Shown here: one piece after another, positions 3,343 through 38,468 of the stretch | How positions within the stretch are numbered: position 1 is the stretch's first letter | How the letters are laid out: each line of letters begins with the position of its first letter | Origin: Streptosporangium sp. NBC_01756 | Lineage (GTDB): Bacteria; Actinomycetota; Actinomycetes; Streptosporangiales; Streptosporangiaceae | Assembly: GCF_035917975.1 (NCBI RefSeq) | Contig: NZ_CP109130.1 | Location: 434,001-498,000, forward strand | DNA length: 64,000 nucleotides | Reading direction: 5' to 3' | Made by a program: the position numbers and the translations under genes | The notes under the pieces: model-generated | Seen by the model: only the letters and a program-made list of their open reading frames with translations | Told to the model about the DNA's origin: nothing | The model's database searches: none

Positions 3343-3500
3343 ATCCCGGACGCGTCATCATCACAGGCGGCCCCGGCGGCTACGAGAAAGTCCCAGGAAA
3401 AGTAGCCGGACCGGCCACGACATCACTACACTCTGTCAAAGGACGATTACATTTTGTCTCCAGAATGTCCGTAAGACCCCACATTTTGAGAGCGAGCTAC

Positions 3501-33687: not shown

Positions 33688-33959
33688 GCAGGCCCGGCCG
33701 CCGCGGGGCCGCCGGCGGCAGGCCGCCACGAACCGGATGGCACCGACTCCGAACATCATGGTGATGGCCACCCGCTCCCCCGGTAGCGGGAGTGGCGGCC
33801 GTTCGAGTGAGTCAGCGCGCCGTACACCTGCGGGGGAAGACGAACAGCCCGGACTTGCCGTTGACGTCGATCGGTCCCGGGCGATCCTTCATGGAAGGAC
33901 CTGGCGGCCGCGCGGTGGGTGCGCTTCTCGGTGAAGGCGCATCCACCGCACGGCGGGTG
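33688..33959. other. Gap between kinase and ohr
   Basis: It contains a hairpin at about 33768-33794 (CCCGCT and AGCGGG arms) that may end the kinase transcript. A 26-codon minus-strand frame at 33812-33892 is present, without a ribosome site and not convincing as a gene. Confidence 0.45.
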
Positions 33960-34394
33960 TCACAGTCGCGTGCCGTCGACGACCAGCGCCACGTCGATGT
34001 TGCCGCGGGTGGCGTTGGAGTAGGGGCACACCTGATGCGCCACCCGGACCAGGTCGGAGGCCTGGGTGGCGTCGGCGATCGACGGCAGCTCGATCTCGAG
34101 TTCGACGCCCAGCTTGAATCCGCCGTTGCCGGCGGGGATGAGCATGACCTTCGCGTCGATCGCCGCGTCATCCGCGCGCAACTGCTTGCGCTGCCCCACT
34201 ATCGCCAGCGAGGCGGCGAAGCAGGCGGCGTAGCCGATGGCGAACAGCTGCTCGGGGTTGGTCCCTTCGCCGTCCCCGCCCAACTCCTTGGGCTGTCGCA
34301 GGTCCACTTCCAGCCTGCCGTCGGCGGTGCGCCCGTGACCGTCCGCCCGGCCACCGGTCACGTGAGCCTGTGCGGTGTAAAGCGCGCTCGTCAT
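33960..34394 (-). CDS. ohr: Organic hydroperoxide resistance protein Ohr
   Basis: A 144-residue OsmC/Ohr-family thiol peroxidase, which reduces organic hydroperoxides in the cytoplasm with a lipoyl-type reductant. The two redox cysteines are in GYAACFAAS and VCPYSNATR, both intact. TNPEQLFA is a family motif. The ATG at 34394 has GAGAGGATC upstream. It is divergent from the F420-type oxidoreductase gene, with overlapping promoters and an inverted repeat in the gap. No OhrR-type MarR gene is adjacent. Confidence 0.93.
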   Translation of the reverse strand: MTSALYTAQAHVTGGRADGHGRTADGRLEVDLRQPKELGGDGEGTNPEQLFAIGYAACFAASLAIVGQRKQLRADDAAIDAKVMLIPAGNGGFKLGVELEIELPSIADATQASDLVRVAHQVCPYSNATRGNIDVALVVDGTRL

Positions 34395-34414
34395 GATGAG
34401 ATCCTCTCGGTTAG

Positions 34415-34465
34415 TTCCTGAAAATGAATCTTAGACTTCAAAATCAGGAAGTCAACGCCTAGGAT
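34415..34465. promoter_or_regulatory. Divergent ohr / oxidoreductase promoters with inverted repeat
   Basis: TTCCTGA (34415-34421) and TCAGGAA (34444-34450) form an inverted repeat; extended arms match at 11 of 14 positions. Minus-strand promoter for ohr: TTGACT (34450-34455), 16 bases, TAAGAT (34428-34433). Plus-strand promoter: TTCAAA (34437-34442), 17 bases, TAGGAT (34460-34465). The repeat overlaps both. Confidence 0.65.
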
Positions 34466-34496
34466 CGGGAACCTGACGACCTCGAGAGGCGACCAC

Positions 34497-35441
34497 ATGA
34501 CTCCATTGAAAATCGGCTACCTGCTGCCGACCCGCGATCAGGCCGTCCGCGGCGACCACGATCCGGAGCAGCTGATCGACCTGGCACGCCGCGCCGAGGC
34601 CCTGGGTTTCGACTCCGTCTGGGCCGGTGACAGCCCCGTGACCAGGCCACGTGCCGACCCGCTGCTGCTCCTGGCGGCCGCGGCCATCGCCACACGACAC
34701 GTCACGCTCGGTACCGCGGTGTTGCTGCCCGCGCTGCGCCATCCGATCCTGCTGGCGCACCAGCTCGCCACCTTGGACCGGCTCGCCGACGGGCGGCTGA
34801 TCGTCGGTATGGGCGGCGGATTCCCCAACGCCAACACCGAGGCCCAGTTCGCCGCGGTCGGTGTCGTCTTTTCTCGCCGTATCAGTCGCCTGGAGGAGTC
34901 GATCGAGGCGATGCGGCGGCTCTGGACCGCAGAAGAGGTCTCCTTCACCGGTCGGCACTTCGACTTCCACGACGTGCGGCTGGCTCCTGCGCCGACTCGG
35001 CCGACAGGCCCGCCGATCTGGCTGGCGGGAGGCGGCGAACCGGCGCTGCGGCGGGTGGCGCGCCTGGCCGACGGCTGGCTGCCCTATCCGCCCGCCGTAC
35101 AGGACTATGCTCGCGACCTGGCTGTCATCCAGCAGTCGACGGCCCGCACGCTCACCCCCGCGCTGTACGCGACGCTGTGCCTGGACGATGACCCCGAGCG
35201 GGCGCGCAGGCGCCTGCGAACCAGCATCGAGCGCTACTACAACGCCCCGCTGGAGGCCGTCGAGACCATCCAGGCCATGTTCGCCGGTACGGCACACCAG
35301 GCCGCCGACTGGCTCAACGCCTACACCGGCGCCGGCGCGCACCACGTGGTGATCCGCCTGGCCGCCGACGACCACCCCGCGGCCCTGGAAGAGTTCGCCG
35401 GCCGCGTACTGCCCCTGATCCGCACGAAAGGACACTCATGA
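34497..35441 (+). CDS. LLM-class (F420-dependent type) oxidoreductase
   Basis: A 314-residue luciferase-like monooxygenase-fold enzyme. Typical segments are IGYLLPTRDQ at the start, RRAEALGFDSVWAGDS, TRHVTLGTAVLLPALRHP and DGRLIVGMGGGF. In actinobacteria this family mostly uses coenzyme F420; FMN is the alternative. The substrate is unknown. GAGAGGCG precedes the ATG at 34497. It is translationally coupled to the hydrolase that follows (ATGA overlap) and is probably controlled by the inverted repeat upstream. Confidence 0.88.
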   Translation: MTPLKIGYLLPTRDQAVRGDHDPEQLIDLARRAEALGFDSVWAGDSPVTRPRADPLLLLAAAAIATRHVTLGTAVLLPALRHPILLAHQLATLDRLADGRLIVGMGGGFPNANTEAQFAAVGVVFSRRISRLEESIEAMRRLWTAEEVSFTGRHFDFHDVRLAPAPTRPTGPPIWLAGGGEPALRRVARLADGWLPYPPAVQDYARDLAVIQQSTARTLTPALYATLCLDDDPERARRRLRTSIERYYNAPLEAVETIQAMFAGTAHQAADWLNAYTGAGAHHVVIRLAADDHPAALEEFAGRVLPLIRTKGHS

Positions 35442-36163
35442 CCACCTTCGTTCTCGTACACGGCGCCTGGCACGGCCCCTGGGCCTGGGACCGCCTCACC
35501 CCGTTCCTTCACCAAGCCGGAGCGCGCACCATCACCCCCTCTCTCACCTTGAACGGCGACATCGGCCTGCACACGCACGTCCAGGAGGTCCTCACGGCCC
35601 TCGACGCCGCGGCCGATGACACCCCGGCAGCCGACCTGAGAGACGATCTGGTGCTGGTCGGGCACAGTTACGCGGGCCTGGTCGTCCGGCAGGCGGCCGA
35701 TCTGCGACCCGGGTTGGTGGACCACGTCATCCTGGTGGACGGCTGGGCCGGCGACGACGGCGCCAGCATGTTCGGCCTGGCACCCGAGGCCTTCGTCCAT
35801 GCGATCCAGGCCGCCGCCGCCCGCACCGGCGCAGGCGACCGGGTCCCCGCCCCGGCTCCGGCGATGTTCGGCATCACCGACCCCGACGACGCGGCCTGGC
35901 TCGCCCCGCGCCTGCGACCCCAGCCACTGCGCACCTTCACCGAGACGACCCGGCTAAGCGGAGCCGTCGACCGGATACCGGGCACCGGCATCCACTGCCG
36001 GCCGCAGACCTATGCCTTCGATCGGTTCGCCGCGGAGATCGGGTACCGGACCATTGCCCTGGACGGCCCACACGACGTGATGCTCACCCACCCGCAGGCT
36101 CTGGCCCGTCTCCTCGTGGAGGCCCACGCATTCCGATTCAATAACAAGAAGCTTCAGGATTAG
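35438..36163 (+). CDS. Alpha/beta hydrolase
   Basis: A 241-residue esterase-like protein. The oxyanion-side motif LVHGAWHGPWAWDRL is at residues 5-19, the nucleophile serine is in VGHSYAG, and the acid/histidine pair is near the end (LDGPHDVMLTHP). There is no signal peptide. It overlaps the LLM oxidoreductase gene by four bases; its TAG stop lies inside the -10 element of the next gene. The enzymes of the pair probably act on one substrate. Confidence 0.9.
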   Translation: MTTFVLVHGAWHGPWAWDRLTPFLHQAGARTITPSLTLNGDIGLHTHVQEVLTALDAAADDTPAADLRDDLVLVGHSYAGLVVRQAADLRPGLVDHVILVDGWAGDDGASMFGLAPEAFVHAIQAAAARTGAGDRVPAPAPAMFGITDPDDAAWLAPRLRPQPLRTFTETTRLSGAVDRIPGTGIHCRPQTYAFDRFAAEIGYRTIALDGPHDVMLTHPQALARLLVEAHAFRFNNKKLQD

Positions 36164-36173
36164 AATGCTGAAG
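36152..36173 (+). promoter_or_regulatory. Inverted repeat surrounding the leaderless HxlR promoter
   Basis: CTTCAG (36152-36157), 10 bases, CTGAAG (36168-36173). The spacer contains TAGAAT (36161-36166), which is 6 bases from the GTG at 36173. The regulator very likely binds here and controls its own transcription. Confidence 0.65.
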
Positions 36174-36850
36174 TGGAACAGCGAACCTACAACCAGTACT
36201 GCGCGACCGCGCGCACCCTCGACCTCGTCGGGGAACGCTGGACCCTGCTACTCATCCGTGAGCTGCTGACCGGCCCCAAACGCTTCGGCGACCTGCAACA
36301 CGGCCTGCGCGGCCTGGGCACCGGCCTGCTGGCCGCACGGATGAAGCATCTGGAACGCGAAGGACTGGTCCACAAGATCATCCTCCCTCCACCGGCCCGC
36401 ACCGCCGCCTACGCCCTCACCCAGGCCGGCGAGGAGCTCGGCCCCGCAGTGCTGGCCCTGGCCCGGTGGGGTCTGAAATGGGCGATGGACGAACCCCTCG
36501 AACAGGAGACCTTCCACCCCGGCTGGGCCGTGCTCGGCCTGAGGGCGTGCTTCGACGCCGAGGCGGCCACCGGCCTGCACGCACTGTATGAGTTCCGCGT
36601 CGAGGAGGAGGTCTTCCACGCCCGCATCGACGACGGCACCATCGAAACGGTGCACGGCCCGGCCCAGCACCCCGACGTGACCATCACGGTCGGCGGCGAG
36701 GTCTTCCGCGACCTCGCCGCCGGCCGGTCGACCCTCGCCGAAGCGATCAACAACGGCGCCGCCTCCGTCTCCGGCGACCAGCAAGCCCTGCGCCGACTGC
36801 ACGGGCTGTTCCGGCTCCCACGCCCGCAAACCCGATCGGCGGCGCGGTGA
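36173..36850 (+). CDS. HxlR-family regulator with C-terminal SCP2-like domain
   Basis: A 225-residue protein. The N-terminal winged helix (CATARTLDLVGERWTLLLIRELLTG... FGDLQHGLRGLGTGLLAARMKHLE) is HxlR-type. The C-terminal about 110 residues (from FRVEEEVFHARIDDG through VTITVGGEVFRDLAAGRSTLAEAI) resemble a sterol-carrier-protein-2 fold, a hydrophobic ligand pocket. It may sense a lipid-like ligand and control the oxidoreductase-hydrolase pair upstream as well as itself. Confidence 0.88.
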   Translation: MEQRTYNQYCATARTLDLVGERWTLLLIRELLTGPKRFGDLQHGLRGLGTGLLAARMKHLEREGLVHKIILPPPARTAAYALTQAGEELGPAVLALARWGLKWAMDEPLEQETFHPGWAVLGLRACFDAEAATGLHALYEFRVEEEVFHARIDDGTIETVHGPAQHPDVTITVGGEVFRDLAAGRSTLAEAINNGAASVSGDQQALRRLHGLFRLPRPQTRSAAR

Positions 36851-36953
36851 GCGTAGCGCTGTCGCCACTTCTCGGCTCGGCCGTCGCGTGGGCGTGGGAG
36901 CGGCCGACCGGGGCGGCGGCCGGGCCGGCCGTCGCCCCGCGAGTGGGCCGCCG

Positions 36954-38468
36954 TTACTCGCCGGTGAGGGCGTTCACCAGCTCGGCGGCCGTGCGGCAGC
37001 GGTCGAACAGCTCGCCCACATGGGCCTTGGTACCGCGCAGCGGCTCCATGGTCGGGACGCGCTGCAGGGACTCGCGGCCGGGGATGTCGAAGATGACCGA
37101 GTCCCAGGAGGCGGCGGCGACCGACTCGCTGAACTGGCTCAGGCAACGGCCCCGGAAGTAGGCCCGCGTGTCGCTGGGCGGGGCCTCGACGGCCCGCTGG
37201 ACCTCTTCCTCGGTAACCAGGCGCTGCATCCGGCCCCGGGCGACCAACCGGTTGTACAGGCCCCGGTCGGGGCGGATGTCGGAGTACTGGAGGTCGACGA
37301 GCTGCAGGCGCGGGTGGGACCAGGGGAGGCCGTCGCGGGTGCGGTAGCCCTCCAGCAGTTCCAGTTTGGCGACCCAGTCCAGCTCCCTGGAGAGCTGCAT
37401 CGGATCCTCGGCCAGCCGGGTCAGCACCGACTCCCAGCGGTCCAGGACGTCCTTGGTGAGCTCGTCCACCCCGTTGCCGCTGCGCTCCTCGGCATACTTG
37501 CGGGCCAGTTCCAGATACTCCATCTGAAGCTGGACGGCCGTGAGCTTACGGCCGTCGCGCATCGCGATCTCGTATCTGAGCGTCGGGTCGTGGGAGACCG
37601 CGCGCAGTGCCTGGACGGGGTTCTCCACGGCGAGGTCCCGGGTGAAGTAACCGTCTTCGATCATGGCCAGGACGAGTGCGGTGGAGCCCAGCTTCAGGTA
37701 GGTCGAGATCTCCGACATGTTGGCGTCACCGATGATGACGTGCAGCCGGCGGTATTTCTCCGGATCGGCGTGCGGCTCGTCCCGGGTGTTGATGATCGGC
37801 CGCTTGAGCGTGGTCTCCAGACCGACCTCGACCTCGAAGAAGTCGGCCCGCTGGCTGATCTGGAAGCCCTCACCGCGCGAGTCCTGGCCGATGCCGACCT
37901 TGCCGGCGCCGGTGACGACCTGCCGGGAGACGAAGAACGGCGTCAGGTGCCTGACGATGTCGGCGAACGGCGTGGCCCGCCGCATCAGGTAGTTCTCGTG
38001 GCAGCCGTAGGAGGCGCCCTTGTTGTCGGTGTTGTTCTTGTAGAGCTGGATCGGGGCGTTGGTGGGGATGGCGGACGCGCGGACCGCGGCGTCGTGCATC
38101 ACCCGCTCCCCCGCCTTGTCCCAGAGCACCGCGGCCCGCGGGTTGGTGCACTCGGGAGCGGAGTATTCAGGGTGGGCGTGGTCGACGTAGAGCCGCGCGC
38201 CGTTGGTGAGGATCACGTTGGCCAGGCCCAGGTCCTCGTCCGTGAGCTGGCTCTGGTCGGCCACCTCCCTGGACAGGTCGAAGCCCCGGGCGTCGCGCAG
38301 TGGGTTCTCCTCCTCGAAGTCCCACCGTGCCCGCCGTGCCCTGGCCGCCGAGGCGGCGAGGTAGGCGTTGACGACCTGGGACGAGGTCACCATCGCGTTG
38401 GCCCCCGGCTGTCCGGGCACGGAGATGCCGTACTCCGTCTCGATGCCCATCACCCGCCGTACCGTCAT
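36954..38468 (-). CDS. dop: Pup deamidase/depupylase Dop
   Basis: A 504-residue paralogue of PafA. It deamidates the C-terminal Gln of Pup and also removes Pup from substrates. The N-terminal [11 protein letters not shown], the catalytic-aspartate segment [13 protein letters not shown], and the Dop-loop region soon after residue 35 ([21 protein letters not shown]) distinguish it from Paf[12 protein letters not shown] and [12 protein letters not shown] follow. ATG 38468 is preferred over 38474 because GAGGATG is then well spaced. It is separated from both pup and arc by unrelated genes. Confidence 0.97.

Follow-up and report, generated by a model that had tools for sequence, protein, structure and literature searches.

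Does one regulator control both the ohr gene and the oxidoreductase operon that diverge from a shared gap of 102 bp, and if so, which protein is it? To address this question, we examined the gap (34395-34496) within the window, that is, the whole 64-kb stretch of DNA that was analysed. The window covers positions 434001-498000 of G000:C1, the single contig of a 9.0-Mb host genome (G000). The ohr gene starts at an ATG at 34394 on the minus strand and its divergent neighbour at an ATG at 34497; that neighbour opens a plus-strand operon in the order LLM-abh-hxlR, in which hxlR is the last gene.

33960-34394, minus strand: ohr, Ohr-family peroxiredoxin of 144 amino acids (TIGR03561, PF02566)
34497-35441, plus strand: LLM, LLM-class F420-type oxidoreductase (TIGR03619, PF00296)
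35438-36163, plus strand: abh, alpha/beta hydrolase (PF12697)
36173-36850, plus strand: hxlR-SCP2, candidate regulator (PF01638, PF02036/PF14864)

The ohr product belongs to the Ohr subfamily (TIGR03561, 162 bits against a cut-off of 88.85), and its score with the NF052637 equivalog model, 152.5, is under the cut-off of 240. The LLM product scores 183.9 bits with TIGR03619 (cut-off 166.9).

Overlapping promoters and a pair of inverted sites

Two promoters and two short sites share the gap.

34428-34455, minus strand: ohr promoter, -35 TTGACT (34455-34450), 16-bp spacer, -10 TAAGAT (34433-34428); from a promoter scan and conserved columns
34437-34465, plus strand: putative LLM operon promoter, -35 TTCAAA (34437-34442), 17 bp, -10 TAGGAT (34460-34465); read from the sequence
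34415-34428, no strand: site O1, TTC-CTGAAAAT-GAA (consensus T[TA]C-N8-GAA); from column conservation and its inverted match to O2
34437-34450, no strand: site O2, core TTC-AAAATCAG-GAA, within the 16-mer CTTCAAAATCAGGAAG (34436-34451); from column conservation and a dyad count

The ohr promoter is the sole promoter-like match in 33900-37000 (shuffle mean 0.1), and the LLM promoter region is moderately conserved (columns 26-31 of the ohr upstream alignment). An initial annotation had described overlapping divergent promoters that share an inverted repeat, and this is what the gap holds: both promoters, and the exact arms TTCCTGA (34415-34421) and TCAGGAA (34444-34450). The overlap had been put at several bases; it is larger, since each -35 falls within the spacer of the opposite promoter.

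The pattern TTCCTGA-N18..26-TCAGGAA occurs at one place in the whole genome, both strands scanned, and its arms are the left end of O1 and the right end of O2. These arms are not universal. Of the three genomes compared at the outset, G122 has broken outer arms and retains GACTTCAAAAN2AGGAAGTCAA; at L016, which holds the same gap as L037, the left 7-bp arm is broken and the TTC-N8-GAA of O2 is kept. Thus, the half-site TCCTGAA proposed earlier does not stand, and the conserved element is TTC-N8-GAA. With a threshold of at least 15 of 22 matches, the site is present in 34 of the 35 aligned ohr upstream rows, the exception being L094, or in 32 of 33 distinct loci, two pairs of rows being the same locus (L034 was left out of this alignment). 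In the 34 site-bearing rows O2 reads CTTC-N8-GAAG, with CTTC kept in 33-34 and GAAG in all 34; the O1 columns hold T in 31, C in 28, G in 33, A in 32 and A in 33. An unbiased dyad count over the ohr upstream regions, from which L034, L093, L094 and L152 were dropped, ranked CTTC-N8-GAAG top among 4-mer dyads, level with its own extension (31/32 regions). In the window, O2 is flanked by GACTTC/GAAGTC arms (34434-34453).

How do O1 and O2 relate to each other? The spacing between them is 22 bp, close to two turns of the helix, and each is inverted relative to the other. The symmetry is greater than chance would give: when O1 is compared with the reverse complement of O2 over 56 loci with an O2 site (after removal of duplicates, L147 and L156), 9.96 of 16 positions agree in register and 2.6-5.6 in the 13 other registers; in L065, L079, L081 and L088 O1 is a perfect inverted copy, 16/16. 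Covariation within loci is weak, the pairing score being 558 within loci and 548.5 (sd 6.3) between them, with 155 of 2000 shuffles reaching 558; it is the register and the 16/16 cases that support the pair. O1 being an inverted copy of O2, the wide repeat of the initial annotation does exist: it consists of the outermost parts of the two sites. We had entertained the wide repeat as a lineage accident, and rejected this on the register test, which makes it the outside of an inverted site pair.

Could the promoter elements alone be conserved, with no operator at all? O2 does cover the LLM -35 and touch the ohr -35, while O1 overlaps the ohr -10 at the final base of that hexamer and takes in the probable start of ohr. 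Yet O2 sits in the spacer between the ohr -35 and -10, and this spacer is conserved as strongly as the hexamers, while ohr genes in genomes without HxlR lack the element (see below). In addition, O1 is a better inverted copy where no ohr gene is adjacent (11.08/16, n=24) than where one is (9.12/16, n=32; p 0.017, a value that, like the other p-values across loci, overstates independence because the loci share ancestry). We therefore regard conservation of promoters alone as exceedingly unlikely. The poorer O1 beside ohr fits a compromise with the ohr -10 and start region.

The gap contains one further exact inverted pair of 7 bp, CCTCTCG/CGAGAGG (34403-34409 and 34483-34489). Judged by eye, its arms are the two ribosome-binding regions, and the pair is probably no operator.

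A matching site at the hxlR promoter

If one protein acts on the gap, does its own gene carry the same element? The region in front of hxlR contains the following features.

36137-36150, no strand: site A, TTC-AATAACAA-GAA, inside the 3' end of abh; from the O2 matrix, the alignment and a motif scan
36161-36166, plus strand: hxlR -10 TAGAAT, 6 bp before the GTG start; from alignment columns
36159-36172, no strand: possible site B, matching in its GAA half alone (36170-36172); this GAA is spaced 22 bp from that of site A

The -10 is nearly invariant (first T in 59, A in 60 and last T in 60 of 61 rows), and the hxlR transcript is probably leaderless, as the -10 stands only 6 bp from the GTG. Counts at this promoter leave out L034, L092, L094, L095 and L096 (broken, truncated or distant), and the matrix scan also excludes the host genome. 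A matrix built from O2 only, scanned over 60 hxlR upstream regions, matches best at -36 to -38 on the same strand in 44; two of those 44 matches (L070, L079) score below zero. It beats all 100 shuffles in 37 of the 60; 35 of these matches are at -36 to -38, and the remaining two fall at the ohr site itself (L044) and at -74 (L089). CTTC-N8-GAAG occurs in 10 of 61 hxlR upstream regions, while no dyad exceeded 5 in 50 shuffled sets. It ranks third there, after GTGA-N3 (23, probably abh coding sequence) and CCGG-N10 (11), and is the best dyad common to the ohr and hxlR upstream sets. A loose form of the motif occurs at exactly two places in the window, the gap and the hxlR promoter, where 0.07 matches are expected.

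The earlier half-site had been likened to arms in front of the HxlR gene. Those arms, CTTCAG/CTGAAG (36152-36173), are broken in L016, and G122 keeps TTCAATAAC(A/G)AGAAG 15 bp upstream of its own broken arms; the element that the two regions share is site A.

Because site A is also part of the abh coding sequence in the host genome, selection on the hydrolase may contribute to its conservation there. The loci L044 and L047, where abh is not next to hxlR, suggest that this is not the whole cause. Sites A and B occur together at 38 of 61 hxlR promoters, A alone at 8, B alone at none, and neither at 15 (Fisher 7e-9); the GAA of B, at -3 to -1 of hxlR, is thus present only alongside site A, which we read as a tendency, the rows being related. 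That site B keeps one half-site only counts against a switch shared by the gap and hxlR. The 15 promoters without site A also mean that autoregulation is not universal. Both sites are absent from the hxlR promoter in Actinomadura (L051, L063, L069, L074, L081, L085, L087) and in Saccharothrix (L079, L082, L088, L090). All of these loci keep a site ahead of the operon's first gene, suggesting that self-regulation of hxlR and control of the target genes can be uncoupled.

The site at separated genes

We collected the best 80 of 198 HxlR loci, which come from Streptosporangium, Nonomuraea, Actinomadura, Nocardia, Streptomyces, Saccharothrix and other genera. Among the 62 close orthologue loci within these best 80 of 198 (L033-L093, L097), ohr lies on the same stretch in at least 28. 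It is divergent from LLM in at least 20 loci, among them L093, where hxlR follows ohr and not abh; divergent from abh in at least four (L064, L068, L070, L091); and next to hxlR, nothing that matches LLM or abh intervening, in at least four (L034, which is decayed, L044, L047 and L054). These counts are lower bounds because some contigs are short.

Where the genes have come apart, the site stays with each of them. In G261 and G257, lone ohr genes on contigs other than that of hxlR carry it, and the LLM operon of G261, which lacks ohr, has a site of its own. In G244 (L147, L155), hxlR has decayed in an LLM operon that retains its site; an intact copy of the gene on a different contig has site A. 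More generally, of 31 operons that have no ohr next to them, 26 have a site ahead of the first gene, and the first-gene region of the other five (L046, L053, L076, L083, L086) is without a good site.

Two unusual arrangements came up among these loci. At L034/L119 (S. minutum; G071), ohr from residue 20 onward appears to be joined to hxlR from residue 11 onward; the deletion appears to have removed the front of ohr, the promoters, the operator, LLM, abh and Cys10, leaving a decayed locus. At L017 (G189) and L018 (G003), LLM relatives of 71-72% identity lie beside abh in the opposite order; these stretches gave no hxlR or ohr match, and in-frame TGA codons were flagged in them (three and one).

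The site follows the HxlR protein across genomes

To score presence, we counted HxlR orthologues at E of at most 1e-80 (the next match is at 3e-53) and strict sites with up to one mismatch. Orthologues are found in 49 of the 345 genomes of the order sample and strict sites in 22, all of them among the 49; the other 296 genomes have none. Against a shared switch, 27 of the 49 orthologue-bearing genomes are without a match when one mismatch is allowed. Two mismatches would add 28 genomes (8 with HxlR), and these matches were set aside as noise, since a reversed-pattern control reaches 24 genomes at that level. In the class sample (394 genomes) the strict core occurs in two only, the host genome and G439, where ohr, LLM and abh stand at the site and an HxlR orthologue (E 3e-123) is encoded 1.7 kb away. 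Both matches are ohr-LLM loci, and this class scan brought up no new target gene. A regulon scan of the host genome with the loose motif had no power, with 67 matches and 59 for the reversed-pattern control.

The ohr genes themselves follow the same rule. Close ohr genes (E at most 1e-45) are found in 24 genomes, 20 of which have HxlR: those 20 genes all carry the site, with 19-22 of 22 matches, and in the four genomes without HxlR (G035, G069, G179, G186) the site is absent from the close ohr gene (10-12 of 22). The two further ohr paralogues of the host genome, L150 and L151, have no site either, with a best score of 11/22. L150 adjoins a gene that, by eye, resembles an AraC-type regulator. 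Upstream of the HxlR-less ohr gene L179 (G179:C54) are two copies of TAGACAGACCTGTCTG, a near-palindrome; by eye it is of the kind bound by TetR-type regulators, so another regulator may control ohr there.

The sites, their conservation, their co-occurrence with HxlR and their presence at separated genes are thus established by computation. Contact between HxlR and the DNA is a step that we infer from them, which leaves room for an unlinked third factor that would recognise TTC-N8-GAA, with HxlR as a co-regulated passenger. Such a factor would, however, have to co-occur with HxlR in each of the 22 order genomes with a strict site and in G439 besides, and we consider it very unlikely.

Is a distant OhrR the regulator?

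OhrR, of the MarR family, is the classical controller of ohr, often through a divergent promoter (in S. avermitilis, according to a passage of PMC6034001). A distant OhrR could then bind the repeat and control ohr, leaving HxlR uninvolved. We searched with a B. subtilis OhrR sequence that matches 1z91 over its full length. The best match in the host genome is weak (E 2.6e-9, 30% identity) and covers residues 25-139, so that Cys15 falls outside it; as a positive control, this query passes a threshold of E 1e-12 in 181 of the 355 class genomes, including G005 of the same genus (E 3e-30), and nothing in the host genome passes that threshold. Nor does the gap contain a box like ACAATTNAATTGT at up to three mismatches; the window as a whole has one three-mismatch match, at 3443, where 0.77 are expected.

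What speaks for OhrR is G439, which holds two OhrR-like proteins (E 3e-39 and 1e-38) as well as the TTC-N8-GAA site, and so tells us that OhrR and the HxlR site can coexist. On the other hand, G069 has OhrR-like proteins, no HxlR, and no site at its ohr gene, and across genomes it is HxlR that the site tracks. Control by a distant OhrR accordingly strikes us as hardly credible at this locus. The initial annotation had preferred HxlR-SCP2 over an OhrR because of the half-site. This reason has fallen, and the preference itself survives, with HxlR-SCP2 the best candidate on other grounds: co-occurrence, site A at hxlR and the site at lone ohr genes on the one side, and on the other the lack of a close OhrR in the host genome and of an OhrR box in the gap. 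Its further suggestion that one regulator could switch both promoters is strengthened as well, a single element serving ohr and LLM, with O2 lying over both.

The HxlR-SCP2 protein and a proposed switch

What kind of protein would this regulator be? An HxlR winged helix spans residues 18-106 (PF01638, 70.4 bits against a cut-off of 20.8; found in 37 of 37 members of set A5) and an SCP2-like domain about residues 128-218 (PF02036, 33.2 bits against 21.3; an SCP2-like domain is found in 33 of the 37). In a structural model with a mean pLDDT of 87.2, Foldseek relates the HxlR half to HypR, YodB and HxlR, and the C-terminal half to alkylsulfatases and SCP2 domains. Cys10 is present in 61 of 61 orthologues and in 17 of 18 distant relatives (L034 and L092 left out), and it aligns with Cys14 of HypR (4a5m), so the protein has a cysteine at the N-terminal redox position. 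A passage of PMC6943732 reports that HypR Cys14 senses redox changes.

To explain these results, we propose that HxlR-SCP2 is likely to repress ohr and the LLM operon through 34395-34496, to regulate its own gene and to respond through a thiol; the proposal is built on comparison of sequences. Reduced HxlR-SCP2 dimers would bind O2 and O1, and once occupied these sites would exclude RNA polymerase from both divergent promoters. The site in front of hxlR would add autoregulation in most of the lineages examined. Oxidation or thiolation of Cys10, perhaps aided by binding of a lipid-like ligand to the SCP2 domain, would then release the protein, so that ohr, LLM, abh and hxlR would rise together. 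In this scheme the binding by HxlR, its repressing effect, its control by redox state and its ligand are all putative; what the SCP2 domain does and what the LLM enzyme acts on are guesses. For ohr, repression is suggested by the position of O2 between the -35 and the -10.

The protein might instead be an activator, or a repressor at ohr combined with a redox-switched activator at LLM and hxlR. Members of the HxlR family can indeed activate, B. subtilis HxlR and HypR among them; going by the title of a 2005 paper by Yurimoto, B. subtilis HxlR is reportedly a positive regulator. The site also covers the -35 of LLM and of hxlR, both of them poor hexamers (TTCAAA, TTCAAT). HypR, for its part, is activated by oxidation (in a passage of PMC6943732). 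At ohr, however, a protein on the site would be placed between the -35, a good one (TTGACT), and the -10, and should obstruct the polymerase; in addition, the inverted site pair spans both promoters. We therefore think activation, in either form, rather unlikely.

The proposed repressor would provide a testable regulator-operator pair for the HxlR-SCP2 protein group. It also suggests that ohr is controlled by a route other than OhrR at loci across several actinobacterial genera. Finally, since the LLM gene shares its switch with a peroxide reductase, the pair offers a possible handle on the substrate of the LLM enzyme.

Comparison with known systems

Among the matches listed in the open-licence literature, we recognised none describing HxlR control of ohr or HxlR-SCP2 regulators. 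The nearest parallel is the OhrR-ohr system of Streptomyces, which likewise combines a thiol-type regulator, ohr as the target and a divergent promoter. In S. avermitilis, OhrR even has two adjacent sites that overlap the -35 (a passage of PMC6034001). OhrR differs in being a MarR-family protein with a ACAATTNAATTGT operator, in contrast to TTC-N8-GAA here, and the partner here is an LLM/hydrolase operon.

The DUF24/HxlR regulators of Bacillus (YodB, CatR, HypR and HxlR) share the winged helix and a cysteine aligned with Cys14 of HypR. As a passage of PMC6943732 has it, YodB, CatR and HypR sense HOCl, quinones and diamide, and HxlR senses aldehydes. The present protein differs by its added SCP2-like domain and by having ohr as a target (operators stand outside this comparison). 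A third parallel is OhsR of Corynebacterium glutamicum, another actinobacterial ohr regulator other than the classical OhrR. Unlike HxlR-SCP2, OhsR is MarR-type according to its authors, is an activator through S-mycothiolation at Cys125 and adjoins ohr (both the likeness and these differences are taken from a passage of PMC6306002).

Set against these systems, it is possible, though we advance it only tentatively, that HxlR-SCP2 represents a separate actinobacterial class of organic-peroxide switch, free of OhrR at this ohr gene. In such a switch the SCP2 domain would bind a lipid (hydro)peroxide or its product, Cys10 would read this out, two dimers would clamp the inverted site pair that spans the divergent promoters, and Ohr would be coupled to an F420-type LLM reductase and a hydrolase that finish the same lipid-derived compounds. 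The component parts are known from other systems, and it is the proposed pairing of regulator and operator that is new.
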